The notes under the pieces: generated by a model
Database searches by the model: none
What the model saw: only the letters and a program-made list of their open reading frames with translations
What the model was told of the DNA's origin: nothing
DNA from: Hoeflea ulvae
GTDB lineage: Bacteria; Pseudomonadota; Alphaproteobacteria; Rhizobiales; Rhizobiaceae
NCBI RefSeq assembly: GCF_026619435.1
Contig: NZ_JAOVZQ010000001.1
Location: 565,501-629,500 of the forward strand
DNA length: 64,000 nucleotides
Reading direction: 5' to 3'
Program-made: the position numbers and the translations under genes
In this document: positions 20,189 to 29,164 of the stretch, one piece after another
How the letters are laid out: each line of letters starts with the position of its first letter
Position numbering within the stretch: the stretch's first letter is position 1

Positions 20189-21462
<1,274 letters not shown>

Positions 21463-23089: not shown

Positions 23090-24796
23090 TCAGTCGTCGT
23101 TGTTCTGCTTCTTCAGGGCTGCGCCCAGAATGTCGCCGAGCGAAGCGCCCGAGTCGGACGAGCCGAACTGTGCGACGGCCTGCTTCTCTTCGGCGATTTC
23201 CAGCGCCTTGATCGACAGACCGACCTTGCGGTCCTTCTTGGAGAAGTTGGTGACGCGGGCATCGACCGTCTGGCCGACCGAGAAACGCTCGGGGCGCTGC
23301 TCGTCACGGTCACGCGACAGATCCGAACGGCGGATGAACGAAGACAGGTCTTCGTGATCAACCAGAACCACTTCGAGACCACCATCGGTGATCGCTGTCA
23401 CCTTGGCAGAGACGATGGCGTTCTTGCGCAGATCGCCCGAAGCGGCGGCGTCGCCGATCGAGTCCTTGCCAAGCTGCTTGATGCCCAGCGAGATGCGTTC
23501 CTTGTCGACATCGACGTCGAGCACGACGGCCTTGACCATGTCGCCCTTGTTGAACTCCTCGATGACCTGTTCGCCCGGACGGTTCCAGTCGAGATCGGAG
23601 AGGTGAACCATGCCGTCGACATCGCCGTCGAGGCCGATGAACAGGCCGAATTCGGTCTTGTTCTTGACTTCGCCTTCGACTTCGGTGCCTGCAGGATGGG
23701 TCTGCGCGAACACTTCCCGGGGATTCTCGAGCGTCTGCTTGAGGCCGAGCGAAATGCGGCGCTTGTTCGGGTCGACTTCGAGAACGACGACGTCAACTTC
23801 CTGCGTTGTCGACAGGATCTTGCCGGGATGCACGTTCTTCTTGGTCCAGGACATTTCCGAAACGTGGATCAGGCCTTCGATGCCCGGCTCCAGCTCGACG
23901 AATGCGCCGTAGTCGGTGATGTTGGTGACGGTACCGGTGATGCGCTTGCCGGCAGGGTACTTGACGCCGATACCATCCCACGGATCGCTTTCCAGCTGCT
24001 TCATGCCCAGCGAGATGCGGTGTGTGTCCTGGTTGATCCGGATGATCTGGACCTTGACGGTCTGGCCGATCGACAGGATCTCGGACGGATGGTTGACGCG
24101 GCGCCATGCCATGTCGGTGACGTGCAGCAGGCCGTCGATGCCGCCAAGATCAACGAACGCACCGTAATCGGTGATGTTCTTGACCATGCCTTCAACGGTC
24201 TGGCCTTCTTCGAGGTTCTGCACGATTTCCGAACGCTGTTCGGCACGGCTTTCCTCGAGAACGGTCCGGCGCGAGACAACGATGTTGCCGCGGCGCTTGT
24301 CCATCTTGAGGATTTCGAAAGGCTGCGTGATGTGCATCAGCGGAGTGACGTCGCGGATCGGACGGATGTCCACCTGGCTGCGTGGCAGGAAGGCCACGGC
24401 GCCGTCCAGATCGACGGTGAAGCCGCCCTTGACCTGGTTGAAGATGACACCTTCAACACGCTCCTGCGCATTGAATTTTTCTTCGAGACGGATCCAGCTT
24501 TCCTCGCGGCGAGCCTTTTCGCGCGACAGCATGGCTTCGCCCAGCGCGTTTTCGATGCGCTCGACATAGACTTCGACTTCGTCGCCGACCTTGAGCGTGC
24601 CGTCCTTCGACTTGGCGCCGAATTCCTTCAGCGGCACGCGGCCTTCGACCTTGAGACCGACGTCGATGATGGCGACGTCCTTCTCGATGGCAATGACGAT
24701 GCCCTTGGCAACATAGCCTTCGGCAAGGTCCTGCGTGGCAAGCGATTCAGCAAACAGCGATGCGAATTCGTCTGTCATGGATTCAGTGTTAGGCAT
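23090..24796 (-). CDS. rpsA: 30S ribosomal protein S1
   Basis: S1 binds mRNA on the small ribosomal subunit and helps initiate translation. The 568-residue protein has six S1/OB repeats; clear examples are GMVKNITDYGAFVDLGGIDG and GTVTNITDYGAFVELEPGIE. The start at 24796 (MPNTESMTDEF) has AGGAGA 6 bases upstream; the internal Met six codons later has none. It is the last gene of a leftward block with cmk, 139 bp away, and that gap may hold a separate promoter or the autoregulatory leader. A strong terminator follows. Confidence 0.97.
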   Translation of the reverse strand: MPNTESMTDEFASLFAESLATQDLAEGYVAKGIVIAIEKDVAIIDVGLKVEGRVPLKEFGAKSKDGTLKVGDEVEVYVERIENALGEAMLSREKARREESWIRLEEKFNAQERVEGVIFNQVKGGFTVDLDGAVAFLPRSQVDIRPIRDVTPLMHITQPFEILKMDKRRGNIVVSRRTVLEESRAEQRSEIVQNLEEGQTVEGMVKNITDYGAFVDLGGIDGLLHVTDMAWRRVNHPSEILSIGQTVKVQIIRINQDTHRISLGMKQLESDPWDGIGVKYPAGKRITGTVTNITDYGAFVELEPGIEGLIHVSEMSWTKKNVHPGKILSTTQEVDVVVLEVDPNKRRISLGLKQTLENPREVFAQTHPAGTEVEGEVKNKTEFGLFIGLDGDVDGMVHLSDLDWNRPGEQVIEEFNKGDMVKAVVLDVDVDKERISLGIKQLGKDSIGDAAASGDLRKNAIVSAKVTAITDGGLEVVLVDHEDLSSFIRRSDLSRDRDEQRPERFSVGQTVDARVTNFSKKDRKVGLSIKALEIAEEKQAVAQFGSSDSGASLGDILGAALKKQNNDD

Positions 24797-24935
24797 GAAT
24801 TCTCCTGGCGACCGCGTAATCATGGTGCGGTCGGATGCGCCTGGTTGGTGTTGGTCGGACCGGCGATGCCTGTCTGCCCCTGACCTTGATGAAGGCGGGG
24901 CAAATACGGCGCGGGACAAGCTCGCTGGTGTCAGT

Positions 24936-25583
24936 TCAGCGTTCGAGCGCAGCATCCACGAGAATACGGGCGGCTTCGAACGCGGTTTCTATACTCATTT
25001 TGGTTGTATCTAGCAAGTGCGCATCCGCTGCCGGCCTGAGCGGCGAATCGGCGCGTTCGCTGTCGCGTGCATCGCGCTTGACGATGTCGGCCAGAATCCC
25101 CTCCAGATCCGAGCTTGCGCCGCTGGCCCGGATCTCGTCATGACGCCGCCTTGCGCGGACTTCCGGGCTGGCGGTGACATAGAACTTGATCAGCGCCTGC
25201 GGGCACACCACCGTGCCGATGTCGCGGCCATCGAGCACCGCGCCGGGCGCAGTGGCGGCAAAGGCCCGCTGGGCCTCGACCAGGGCGCGGCGCACCTTCG
25301 GCATCACCGCCACCTTCGAGGCGGCCTCGCCGATCTCGTGGGCGGACAGCACCGCGCGGTCGAGATGTCCCAGATCAAGCCCGAGGGCGACGTCGGCCGC
25401 CAGTTCCTCGTCATCAAGCGGCAGGCCGCGATCGAGCAGCGCCTTGGCCGTGGCCCGGTAGGTGAGCCCGGTGTCGAGATGATTGAGGCCGTAATGGCTT
25501 GCCAGTTGCCGCGACAAGGTGCCCTTGCCGGCGGCTGCCGGTCCATCCACCGCAATGACGGTCTGCGAAGTGTTTCTGGTCAT
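24936..25583 (-). CDS. cmk: Cytidylate kinase
   Basis: Cmk phosphorylates CMP and dCMP. The 215-residue protein begins [20 protein letters not shown], a P-loop, followed by [15 protein letters not shown] (the rhizobial form of the LDTGAMYRA motif) and [20 protein letters not shown]. Length is normal. It starts 10 bp after the stop of the PaiB-like gene, so it is cotranscribed with it. In most rhizobia cmk directly follows aroA; here two genes lie between. Confidence 0.96.
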
Positions 25584-25593
25584 CGGGAATGCC

Positions 25594-26229
25594 TCATCTG
25601 TCTGTCAGTCCGCCGTAATCGGCCACCATATCCGCCATCTCCGTGTCTCCGTCGGCCGTCAGCCCGGCGTGAACGCCGCGCCGGTCGGCCTCGGACCGGT
25701 TCTGGCTGACCTTCCATTTGCCGGTGAGTTGCGCGGGCGCAATCTCGATGCCGACAATGCCGCGCAACTGCGCCGCCACGAATTTTTCCGGCGCGTCCTC
25801 GACCTGCCATGGGGTCTGCCGGCGGGCCTCGTGGCGGCTGGTCAGGTCGCGCACCTGCCGGCCCAGCCAGTCGGCCGTCTCGTGCACGCTGGCCCGGCCG
25901 CGGGCCTGGACCATGGCATAGTTCCAGGTCGGCACCACCTTGCCATGCTCGGCCTTGGAGACATACCAGGAGGGTGTCACATAGCTGTCGAAGCCCTGAA
26001 ACACCACCAGCACCTCGGCGCCCTCGCCGATATGGCGCCATTGCTCATTGGCTTTCGAAAGATGGGCGCGCAGCGTGGTGACGCCATCGGTGACGGAGAC
26101 CAGGAACGGCACCGGATTGGCCAGCACGCCCGACGGCGAGGTCAAGATCAGCAGGCCGAGCGGATGCGCGGTGATCAGCGCCCGCAACACGGTCTCGTCG
26201 GTCTCGGCAAAATTCGGCGGCAGATACAT
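25594..26229 (-). CDS. PaiB-family FMN-binding protein
   Basis: A 211-residue protein of the PaiB family (FMN-binding split-barrel, annotated as negative transcriptional regulator). It begins [29 protein letters not shown] and contains [22 protein letters not shown] and the conserved [20 protein letters not shown], then [10 protein letters not shown]. These are FMN and dimer contacts in the family. The role here is not known; it may act on a small electrophile or as a flavin reductase. It lies 37 bp after the isomerase gene in a leftward operon. Confidence 0.85.
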
Positions 26230-26266: not shown

Positions 26267-26908
26267 TCATTTGCGCTTTATTCCGATGGTGACATTCTCG
26301 AGATGGCGATAGGGCTCGCGGGCAAACAGGGTGTCGTCGTCAAGCCAGGCCAGCAGCATGTCGAAGGCGTCGACGCCCCAGAACACCTCGTGCCCCGTGG
26401 CCGTGGCGCAGGCAAAGCTCGGCACGCCGAAGACGCCGCGGGCGATCGCCTGCTCGGTATTGGCCCTCAATGCGGCCTTGGCGGCGTCGTCAGTGGCGAG
26501 CGCCAGCGGCAGCCCGAGTTCTGCGGCGAAAGCGGCAAGCTCATCCTCGGTGTCGGGCGCCCGTCCCTGGCCGAAGACAAAGCCGAAGCCGCGCCGGACC
26601 GTGTCGAGATCGGCGTCGGAGCCCGCCAGCAGCCGCAGCGCATTGAGCGGATTGAACGGATGGCGCGGCGGAAAACGGATGTCGACGCCATGCTGCTTTC
26701 CCAGAAACACCGACTGGCGGTAGGTGTGCAGCCGCTTGGCCGAAATTTCCGCCGGTCCGCGCTGGCCCCAGTGATTGAGGATCGCCCCGAGCAGCACCGG
26801 CACCGGCCGCACCGTCACACCGGCCGGCAATTCACCAAGCCGCGCCAGCGCCACATGGGCGAAAGGCGAGATCAGGTCGTAGCAGAAGTCGATGTTGCGG
26901 GCGGTCAT
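26267..26908 (-). CDS. 2-hydroxychromene-2-carboxylate isomerase-like DsbA-fold protein
   Basis: A 213-residue glutathione-dependent isomerase of the DsbA/kappa-GST fold. The N terminus IDFCYDLISPFAHVALARL carries the SP(F/Y) motif whose serine contacts glutathione, and GVFGVPSFAC is the cis-proline motif. The founding family member works in naphthalene breakdown, but many bacteria without that pathway carry homologues, so the substrate is open. Its ATG overlaps the stop of the upstream aroA-like gene (TCAT on the plus strand), indicating translational coupling. Confidence 0.85.
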   Translation of the reverse strand: MTARNIDFCYDLISPFAHVALARLGELPAGVTVRPVPVLLGAILNHWGQRGPAEISAKRLHTYRQSVFLGKQHGVDIRFPPRHPFNPLNALRLLAGSDADLDTVRRGFGFVFGQGRAPDTEDELAAFAAELGLPLALATDDAAKAALRANTEQAIARGVFGVPSFACATATGHEVFWGVDAFDMLLAWLDDDTLFAREPYRHLENVTIGIKRK

Positions 26909-28263
26909 GGCTGGCTTATCTCCGCGCCCAGGCCGGTCATCCGGGCGATGAAATCGGGATCATGGGCGGCGAGGGCCGCGGCATCGTCAATCGTGACAGC
27001 ATGCTCGCTGGCAAACCCCATGACAAGAAAGCTCATGGCGAGGCGCGGATCGGGACCGGTGGCGACGACCGCGCCGCCGGCCTGGGCGCCCAGGCCGCGG
27101 CCGCCGGGCCGACCGCGCAGCGACAGCCCTCCGGGCCCCTCGCTGCAGTCGACCCCGGTGAGTGCGAGGCCGCGGGCAAGAGCAGAGAGCCGGTCGCGCT
27201 GCTCCGGCGGCAGGTTTGCGGGGACGGGCATCCGGGTTTCACCTTCGGCAAAGCTCGCGGCGATCGCCAGCGCCGGATAGTCCGCGATCATCGCCGCCGC
27301 ATGCTCGGCCGGCACGGAGGTGGCGGTGAGCGCCGAGGCGCGGACGCGCAGATCGGCCACCGGCTCGCCGACGGACTGGCGCGGGTCGAGGATCTCGATA
27401 TCGGCGCCCATGTCCTGCAGCGTCCGGATCAAGACGTTAAGGGCCGGGGTCATCAGCACCGTGTCGATGGTGATATCGGAGCCCGGCACGATCAGCGCCG
27501 CCACCAGCGCAAATACGGCCAGCGAGGGATCGCCGGGCACATTGATGATCTGGCCGGCCAATGCGCAGCGACCTTCAAGCCGGGTGATGCGGGCGCCATC
27601 GGCGCCGGTTTCGACCGCCAGGCTGGCGCCGAAGCAGGTCAGCATGGTCTCGAGGTGATCCTGGCCCGGGCTCGCCTCGGTGACGCTGGTGATGCCGGGA
27701 ATGTTGAGCCCGGCCAACAGCACCGCGGTCTTGACCCCAGTGTCACCGCCCGGCACGGCATGGCTGATAGGGGCAGGCGCGCGCGGGCCGCGCAAGGTGA
27801 GCGGCAGGCGGGCGCCGGTTGCGCAGCGGATCTGGGTGCCGATCTGCCGCAGGGGCGCGAGCAGCCGGTCCATCGGCCGCTGCGACAGCGGCGCCGCGCC
27901 GGCAAAGCCGGTGTCGAAATCATAGCTGCCGACCAGCCCCATGACCGGCCAGCAGCCGCTGCCGGCGGGGCCGAAATCGAGCGGCGCGTCCGGGGCCAGC
28001 AGGCAGCCATTGCCGACGCCCTGGATGATCCACTCGCCGTTTCGCCTGCGCATGCCGGCGCCGAGCGCCTGCATCGCCGCGGCGGTGGCCAGCACATCGT
28101 CATTTTCAATCAGGCCGGTGATCCGGGTCTCGCCGCTGGCCAGGCCGCCGAGGATCAGGCAGAGATGGGAGATCGAAGTGTCGCCGGCCGGACGGATGCG
28201 GCCCGAGAGCGCCGGGCTTGATGCGGCGCGGGCTGGGCGAATGGATGCGGCTGCGTGGCCCAT
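26905..28263 (-). CDS. EPSP synthase-like protein lacking most active-site residues
   Basis: A 452-residue protein that aligns end to end with class II (CP4-type) EPSP synthases: shared blocks include GGLASGETRITGL, MGLVG-YDFD, AVLLAGLN-PGIT, VPGDPS, VAALIVPGSDITI, MGADIEI, VADLRVR and RLAMSFLVMG. Yet key residues differ. GDKSISHR is GDTSISHL (lysine and arginine lost, about residues 29 and 34). NAATGCR is PAGSGCW. The SAQ shikimate-phosphate contact is DTG. TRDH is GQDH. The catalytic aspartate in MIDEYP is alanine in MIADYP. RVKESDR is PPEQRDR. The frame is intact. It sits in the ancestral aroA place, between the divergent TIGR02300-type gene and cmk-rpsA, and overlaps the next gene. Catalysis is unlikely; its role is unknown. 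Confidence 0.85.
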   Translation of the reverse strand: MGHAAASIRPARAASSPALSGRIRPAGDTSISHLCLILGGLASGETRITGLIENDDVLATAAAMQALGAGMRRRNGEWIIQGVGNGCLLAPDAPLDFGPAGSGCWPVMGLVGSYDFDTGFAGAAPLSQRPMDRLLAPLRQIGTQIRCATGARLPLTLRGPRAPAPISHAVPGGDTGVKTAVLLAGLNIPGITSVTEASPGQDHLETMLTCFGASLAVETGADGARITRLEGRCALAGQIINVPGDPSLAVFALVAALIVPGSDITIDTVLMTPALNVLIRTLQDMGADIEILDPRQSVGEPVADLRVRASALTATSVPAEHAAAMIADYPALAIAASFAEGETRMPVPANLPPEQRDRLSALARGLALTGVDCSEGPGGLSLRGRPGGRGLGAQAGGAVVATGPDPRLAMSFLVMGFASEHAVTIDDAAALAAHDPDFIARMTGLGAEISQP

Positions 28264-28484
28264 GGCAGTATTTCCGGCTGTTTTGCTCTGGACAGGCCCG
28301 GGATCCGGCCTCTGTGCCCGGCTGACTAGCACAGGCTTTGGGGGGCGTCATCCGGATTGGTTGAATATTTGATGAGAATGGCTTTGACAGCCGCGCTCAA
28401 CATCATTATGGGGACCGGACCCGCCGAACCGGGAAGCCGGGCTTGCGAGCCTGAACCTTCCTGACATTTCAAGAGGCTTCGATT

Positions 28485-28916
28485 GTGGCAAAACCGGAAC
28501 TTGGAACAAAACGCGTTTGCCCCGAAACCGGGCGCAAATTCTATGATCTGAATAAGGATCCAATTGTGTCGCCCTATACGGGCAAGACCTACCCGACTTC
28601 ATTCTTCGAGGAAACGGCGAAAGTGGCCGTGATGGCGAAGGCGAAGGCGGAGAAGAAAACCGACGACGACGATGAAGATGATGTACCCGAGGTCGAGGCA
28701 GAATCGGCCGATGTGGAGATCGTCTCGCTTGAGGAAGCCGACGAGGATGCCAAGAGCACCGGCAAGTCCGATGATGTGCCAGACATCGACGATGATGATG
28801 ATGTCGAACTCGACGATGACGATGATGACGACACGTTTCTGGCCGATGACGACGACGACGATGACGATGATGTCAAGGATATCATCGGCGTCAGCGACGA
28901 CGACGACGACCAGTAG
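28485..28916 (+). CDS. TIGR02300-type zinc-ribbon protein with acidic tail
   Basis: A 143-residue protein found across alphaproteobacteria, function unknown. Residues 1-45 (AKPELGTKRVCPETGRKFYD, then KDPIVSPYTGKTYP) form a half zinc-ribbon-like module. From about residue 60 the chain is highly acidic, with long runs of aspartate. The start is a GTG with AGAGG about 9 bases upstream. It is divergent from the aroA-like gene, the usual arrangement for this family, and is followed by a hairpin with A and T runs. The opposite-strand poly-Ser frame is a by-product of the Asp codons. Confidence 0.88.
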   Translation: MAKPELGTKRVCPETGRKFYDLNKDPIVSPYTGKTYPTSFFEETAKVAVMAKAKAEKKTDDDDEDDVPEVEAESADVEIVSLEEADEDAKSTGKSDDVPDIDDDDDVELDDDDDDDTFLADDDDDDDDDVKDIIGVSDDDDDQ

Positions 28917-29088: not shown

Positions 29089-29164
29089 GGGGCCATAGCT
29101 CAGCTGGGAGAGCGCCTGCATGGCATGCAGGAGGTCAGCGGTTCGATCCCGCTTGGCTCCACCA
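29089..29164 (+). tRNA. tRNA-Ala (anticodon GGC)
   Basis: A 76-nt tRNA. The acceptor stem GGGGCCA pairs with TGGCTCC, the discriminator is A and the CCA end is encoded. The anticodon arm CCTGC-ATGGCAT-GCAGG gives GGC, reading GCC and GCU codons. The T-arm is GCGGTTCGATCCCGC. It stands alone, outside any rRNA operon. Confidence 0.97.

Follow-up and report, generated by a model that had tools for sequence, protein, structure and literature searches.

The open reading frame at positions 26905-28263 (minus strand) of the window, the 64,000-nucleotide stretch of Hoeflea ulvae DNA analysed here, belongs to the class II (CP4-type) EPSP synthases by sequence, fold and operon position. EPSP synthase is the enzyme targeted by glyphosate. 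The 452-aa product, referred to here as pseudo-EPSPS, is a homologue with a dismantled active site, as judged from its sequence, fold, residue scoring and structural model. On present sequence evidence, it is probably a true pseudoenzyme that gene displacement left behind and on which selection still acts at the protein level. Loss of residues, an intact frame, preservation of the start and of the upstream region, and purifying selection across the remainder of the protein are all observed.

The top solved relative of the protein is the EPSPS of CP4 (2ggd), with 521.8 bits over residues 2-450, and EPSP_synthase is its sole Pfam domain. The EPSPS fold spans the full length in the Pfam match, the 2ggd alignment and the predicted structure, which bears out the initial annotation in its claim that the class II scaffold is kept throughout. 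The AlphaFold2 model, made with 35 aligned sequences as input, is confident (pLDDT 86.8, pTM 0.86), and its three top structural matches are CP4 entries (2ggd, 2gg6 and 2gg4). Of these, the unliganded 2gg4 lies closer to the model (TM 0.92 by target, with 0.85 for the S3P complexes), a contrast that may stem from the modelling and carries no weight as evidence. Among the best 120 of 2118 matches, the nearest named relative is a protein of Hoeflea sp. IMCC20628 with 66% identity, and no within-species-grade relative above this value was found in the same 120. The frame is unbroken by stops and aligns without gaps to the other Hoeflea copies, so the broken reading frame of a pseudogene is absent and a frame error is ruled out. 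A chance match or misalignment, which the initial annotation had itself raised as a danger, is likewise ruled out by the CP4 score together with the ungapped Hoeflea alignment. The ORF, its coordinates, the motif changes quoted for it and the absence of stops and frameshifts were all found as first described.

On the aroA model TIGR01356, the protein scores 261.4 bits, below the cut-off of 287.25, and three intact class II proteins score 406-442. The three other dead Hoeflea copies clear the cut-off (314-339), which makes it a weak test of function. Automatic annotation can therefore label dead copies as EPSP synthase, as this model would do for three of the four in Hoeflea. Such mislabelling of a dead class II aroA matters for the prediction of glyphosate tolerance or aromatic synthesis.

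For scoring of the active site, 25 positions were chosen on the basis of structural work on the CP4 and E. coli enzymes, and we take these to represent the site; they are given in CP4 numbering, counted on the 2ggd alignment. In the window copy, 15 of the 25 are changed, and the alignment places most of them in six blocks on the minus strand. GDKSISHR (28162-28185) has become GDTSISHL (K28T, R33L), and the NAGTGCR block (NAATGCR in native CP4; 27949-27969) has become PAGSGCW (N98P, T101S, R104W). Further, SAQ is replaced by DTG (27736-27744; S173D, A174T, Q175G), TRDH by GQDH (27655-27666; R200Q), MIDEYP by MIADYP (27274-27291; D326A, E327D) and RVKESDR by PPEQRDR (27190-27210; R351P, K353E, E354Q, with R357 kept), and H404P completes the list. 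The positions retained are S29, A99, G100 (A100 in native CP4), R128, D201, H202, D356, R357, D403 and R405, and the three PEP-site arginines R128, R357 and R405 thus persist. With S29 and these arginines in place, the PEP side would be partly kept, and the S3P side appears mostly lost, along with D326, K353 and E354, the residues presumed to do the chemistry. All seven of the residues taken here as the key substrate-binding and catalytic ones (K28, R33, Q175, R200, D326, K353 and E354) are altered. Glu354 of CP4 is described as important for catalysis in a passage of PMC3371024.

The losses are concentrated at the active site: 15 of its 24 conserved positions are affected, against 32 of 181 other conserved positions (Fisher p = 9.5e-6). 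The latter reach a conservation of at least 98% across 147 sequences taken to be functional, namely 165 minus 18 judged degenerate, borderline or from two-gene genomes, and some loci and protein matches among the 147 are the same gene. The initial annotation was right that catalytic residues are lost, but its statement that nearly all such positions differ is too strong, since 15 of 25 are lost and the three PEP-site arginines are kept. The copy therefore has the enzyme fold and the lost catalytic residues that define a pseudoenzyme, and we infer that it is probably not an EPSP synthase. A separate difference was seen in the four dead Hoeflea copies (window positions 27520-27522; L005, L041 and L048), all of which carry GDPSL, where the intact Hoeflea copies have GDPSS; either shared ancestry or convergence would account for it.

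The genome itself (5.1 Mb, two contigs, 100% complete) contains three PF00275 genes: murA, the window copy and a class I-like EPSPS (aroA) of 422 aa at G000:C1:1888917-1890182. The last was identified by a pass on TIGR01356 (334.7 bits) and by motif alignment with a solved class I enzyme, against which GSKS, GNAGTA, SSQ, RVKE-DR, DHR and the C-terminal lysine are all retained. It shares 33% identity with the window copy over residues 17-185. By its sequence, it could supply the EPSP synthase activity of this genome. The presence of another EPSPS gene, as initially expected, is thus borne out, and the absence of any other aroA is ruled out by this intact gene. In the proposed course of events, the class I-like EPSPS would take over catalysis and thereby free the ancestral class II enzyme, which heads the aroA...cmk-rpsA operon, to lose its S3P-binding and catalytic residues by drift. 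The product would still be made as a folded, non-catalytic protein with some function in the cell, and one guess is that this is a binding, regulatory or structural role already held by class II EPSPS at the locus.

The distribution of the two genes fits into this picture. The class I gene was found in 64 and the class II gene in 235 of the 297 sampled genomes of the family, and a comparison of the two lists places both genes in 14 of the 64 class I carriers; within Hoeflea, the class I gene is present in 9 of 18 genomes. Altogether, 34 two-gene genomes were scored (Hoeflea 8, g71 16, g58 5, g31 4 and g97 1), of which 11, from five genera, carry a class II copy with changes at 3 or more of the 25 sites. 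Reading frames remain unbroken in these copies. No site was changed in any of the 35 class II-only genomes scored, a difference with Fisher p = 1.6e-4 when kinship is ignored. These 35 copies (27 non-Hoeflea, 8 Hoeflea) are a subset of all class II-only genomes found; the absence of class I is less sure in G038 and G043, which are 88% and 76% complete, and G272, also class II-only and intact, lies outside the 35.

The numbers of sites changed are 16 in G161, 15 in the window genome (G000), 11 in G323, 10 in G046, 8 in G066, 7 in G245 (counted despite 9% contamination of its genome), 5 in G169, 4 each in G210 and G315, and 3 each in G283 and G318. A further genome, G316, has 2 changes and was scored as not degenerate, and the remaining 22 of the 34 have 0 or 1; decay of the class II copy is, therefore, not inevitable. 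The replacements differ among the lineages, which, together with the five genera affected, indicates that catalytic loss arose repeatedly. In one more Hoeflea genome, G069, the class II copy is dead with 13 changes, and no class I gene was found in its 77%-complete assembly; it is nested within the two-gene Hoeflea group in the class II tree. G069 was left out of the 34/35 table, as were G072 (75% complete, class I only), G189 (a fragment) and two further class II proteins, P0107 and P0115, which are metagenomic or unplaced and have 6 and 4 of the 25 sites changed.

The rate of change of the class II copies was considered on trees. In the class II protein tree (34 tips), 10 of the 11 longest terminal branches belong to two-gene genomes, and the other to G069. 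The terminal branches of G000, G066, G161 and G245 measure 0.52, 0.45, 0.71 and 0.49, against 0.07, 0.10, 0.18 and 0.11 for the same genomes in a neighbour-gene tree, which has weak nodes (support 47 for G066). Omega was estimated with a purpose-written codon model on 452 alignment columns, which begin three codons upstream of the ATG and cover codons 1-449. It is 0.072 in the background, 0.111 in intact two-gene copies and 0.203 in the four dead Hoeflea copies. On the window branch, it is 0.27 (dS 0.62), a value that blends the time before and after the catalytic loss. Omega = 1 is rejected there (2dlnL 35.2); the dN/dS check suggested initially thus came out in favour of constraint, and omega is not near 1 across the gene as in a pseudogene.

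This constraint is unevenly placed. Along the window branch, in fits by site class with branch lengths held fixed, omega is 0.83 at the active site (CI 0.47-1.46), which is near-neutral, and 0.256 at all other codons (CI 0.21-0.30), and each of six segments of the gene lies at 0.16-0.35. In fits of this kind, the dead Hoeflea branches give 0.48 (0.35-0.66) at the active site and 0.095 (0.078-0.114) at other conserved sites, both against 0.004 in the background, and 0.264 against 0.136 at variable sites. For G161, G323 and G169 pooled, with dS saturated for G161 (2.29), the values are 0.395, 0.083 and 0.166 against a background of 0.001, 0.019 and 0.176 in the same order. Relaxation thus extends to the conserved scaffold sites (about 4- to 24-fold), although it is far stronger at the active site. 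The contrast with the active site points indirectly to purifying selection on the window protein after its catalytic loss, as befits a pseudoenzyme. Protein-level selection after the loss is well supported.

Such selection has to be read against the position of the gene. The divergent gene of a FYDLN_acid protein (28485-28916, plus strand; PF09538) marks the locus, and the upstream region between the two genes (28264-28484) is a putative operon start, with blocks common to dead and intact Hoeflea copies in the eight loci aligned and in their start contexts. The start context of the window copy and several of these blocks match the intact Hoeflea copies. On the minus strand, pseudo-EPSPS is followed by a DSBA-fold protein gene (26267-26908; PF01323, synteny), whose start overlaps the pseudo-EPSPS stop as ATGA, as the claim of coupling to the next gene had held. 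Beyond it lie an FMN_bind_2 protein gene (25594-26229; PF04299, synteny), cmk for (d)CMP kinase (24936-25583; TIGR00017, 177 bits) and a listed ORF conserved downstream of cmk (23090-24955), which we take, from its sequence and gene order, to be rpsA for ribosomal protein S1, and whose true start may lie further in. The order FYDLN-aroA-cmk-rpsA holds in 22 relatives and the window, as far as each sequence stretch extends, with the DSBA and FMN_bind_2 genes sitting between aroA and cmk in Hoeflea and extra gaps in some relatives; the placement at the ancestral aroA position is therefore sound. A passage of PMC1173090 also describes the order aroF(=aroA)-cmk-rpsA as stable in alphaproteobacteria.

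Some other elements of the region may be mentioned. A block of ~40 bases (CCCATAATGATGTTG...GCGGCTGTCAAAGCCA) in the divergent FYDLN/aroA region (28264-28484) is almost invariant in all eight Hoeflea loci aligned and is perhaps a promoter or operator. An IS110-family transposase (Pfam; 20189-21181, minus strand) separates an RND-like gene from the rpsA end of the cluster, and tblastn gave no counterpart of it in the 22 relatives. A ParD-type antitoxin gene (PF03693; 29368-29670, plus strand) occurs shortly past a tRNA-Ala gene (29089-29164).

The main rival to the pseudoenzyme reading takes the copy as a passenger, a functionless first gene of the transcript that feeds cmk and rpsA, held in place by polarity, coupling and foldability. 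Selection would remove stops and frameshifts because of polarity and the coupling lost, and misfolding would be costly as the product is still made. We consider this unlikely, though the strongest of the alternatives. It agrees with the position of pseudo-EPSPS at the start of its cluster and its ATGA overlap with the following gene, with the lack of a common replacement pattern among lineages, and with the fact that the gene is missing in many relatives. Within ~1.5 kb upstream of cmk, no class II remnant was found at E 1e-3 in 11 of 12 class-I-only genomes, the one exception, G115, having a short one; the class II protein is therefore dispensable in many relatives. Pure coupling, however, predicts a mid-gene omega near 1, and the values of 0.16-0.35 in the six segments rule it out as a sufficient explanation; the ungapped alignment also speaks against the passenger. 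A cost of foldability alone, on the other hand, fits the protein-level selection that is seen.

The genus g99 bears on this rival from both sides. A class I gene with 64-68% identity to that of the window genome is present in each of its five species searched, and all five carry at the aroA locus, flanked by FYDLN, cmk and rpsA, a one-domain mini-EPSPS (L256, L257, L258, L259 and L260) that matches only about the first 240 EPSPS residues and is without the catalytic residues. In four of the five loci, the mini overlaps cmk by ATGA, which again suits the passenger. The family comprises at least 17 database proteins, including the query's own (P0121-P0137; E up to 1e-10, 7997 candidates scored), and 13 of the 17 are 212-233 aa long. 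One member is named 'hypothetical protein' at NCBI, and two distant members are named EPSPS by JGI. P0135-P0137, at 33-37% identity to the first mini-family protein, may be separate reductions. The mini is confidently modelled as one EPSPS domain (pLDDT 87.8), with the isolated N-terminal EPSPS domain 1p88 among its matches. Its omega is 0.18 over the five species, dS being saturated for G299 (2.92), and 0.22 over three close species, with omega = 1 rejected in both cases (2dlnL 193 and 103). If the C-terminal half was lost once, then all branches within g99 postdate that loss. In that case, omega has stayed at about 0.2 in the minis ever since they were reduced, at a locus where the gene can also be lost, which counts against the passenger, and the minis are the cleanest sign of protein-level selection on a non-catalytic, EPSPS-derived protein. 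To the window copy, this evidence would extend by analogy. The confident EPSPS-fold models predicted for both proteins would also favour the pseudoenzyme reading.

It is quite improbable that the copy was inactivated recently and is decaying into a pseudogene, with the constraint as the residue of an active past. The omega of the window branch is indeed above the background (0.27 against 0.072), and the catalytic losses are lineage-specific. The active-site omega of 0.83 on this branch, beside 0.256 for the remainder, nevertheless indicates that much of the branch postdates the loss. If 48% of the branch is assumed to be neutral, then 6 stops (P of none 0.0025) and 20-40 indels are expected, and at 21%, 2.6 stops (P of none 0.07) and 9-18 indels; none were observed. 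The nonsense share, 1.5% of neutral changes, was counted directly, and the indel ratio is an assumed value. A nonsense rate from the codon-frequency model was dropped because it looked too low, with stop codons weighted by composition. A new enolpyruvyl-transferase-like enzyme acting on a different substrate is least probable of all: R128, R357 and R405 are retained in the window copy, but K353, E354 and D326 are lost, and with R128 lost in G046, G069 and G161 and replacements varying between copies, no conserved new site is seen.

The pseudoenzyme reading thus remains the best explanation, and several observations count against it as well: the lack of a remnant in 11 of the 12 class-I-only loci, the different residues lost in different lineages, the relaxation of scaffold sites and the 22 of 34 two-gene genomes with 0 or 1 change. 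Owing to the differing losses and the absence of the gene from many relatives, a single shared new function is not demonstrated. The new role put forward in the initial annotation does not follow, as the selection could reflect an old non-catalytic role, or constraints of foldability and operon only. A broader proposal, somewhat short of probable, is that, at the aroA-cmk-rpsA locus of Rhizobiaceae, class II EPSPS has a further function besides catalysis. This function could outlast the class I takeover on its own, carried by full-length pseudoenzymes in Hoeflea and several other genera and, in one genus, by the one-domain mini that overlaps cmk. A natural aroA-cmk fusion is modelled in NCBIfam (NF008816), which makes Cmk a partner worth testing and nothing beyond.

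At this one locus, a core metabolic enzyme can be followed through a series of natural states: intact beside a redundant partner, dead at full length, cut down to a single domain, and lost altogether. As related genomes carry every state, the circumstances and reasons for which dead enzymes are retained can be tested directly. A pseudoenzyme is an ordinary evolutionary outcome, found here in an enzyme for which the literature searched, with most subscription journals outside its scope, describes no pseudoenzyme.

Compared with the AroA of Agrobacterium sp. CP4 (2ggd, 2gg6 and 2gg4), the window copy has the same full-length fold, with 58% identity in the structural match, and the same alphaproteobacterial aroA-cmk-rpsA position, according to the order given in a passage of PMC1173090. 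It differs in the 15 of 25 sites changed, including K353, E354 and D326, and in falling below the TIGR01356 cut-off. A similar pair, class I-like and class II in one genome, appears in the passages of PMC7840833 on two-EPSPS Rhizobium strains, whose authors hypothesise a class II gene without a functional product. That hypothesis is based there on tolerance levels, and the CP4-related class II sequences are said to keep the critical domains; unlike the present case, these passages contain no dead active site, selection or reduced form. PMC12451606 concerns single class II genes.

In the TyrA-AroF fusion of Pseudomonas syringae, as a passage of PMC1173090 relates, the EPSPS domain was broken after the gain of a stand-alone EPSPS; in the authors' view, what is left of it might evolve into a regulatory domain. 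By this account, the fusion has lost ~200 N-terminal residues, whereas the window copy is stand-alone and full-length, and the g99 minis keep the very N-terminal part that the fusion lost. The deoxyhypusine synthase of trypanosomatids, as portrayed in an excerpt of PMC3663545, is likewise a case of an inactive homologue beside an active enzyme. There, the dead paralogue activates the active one; the two EPSPS of the window genome, in contrast, are a distant pair, with 33% identity over residues 17-185.
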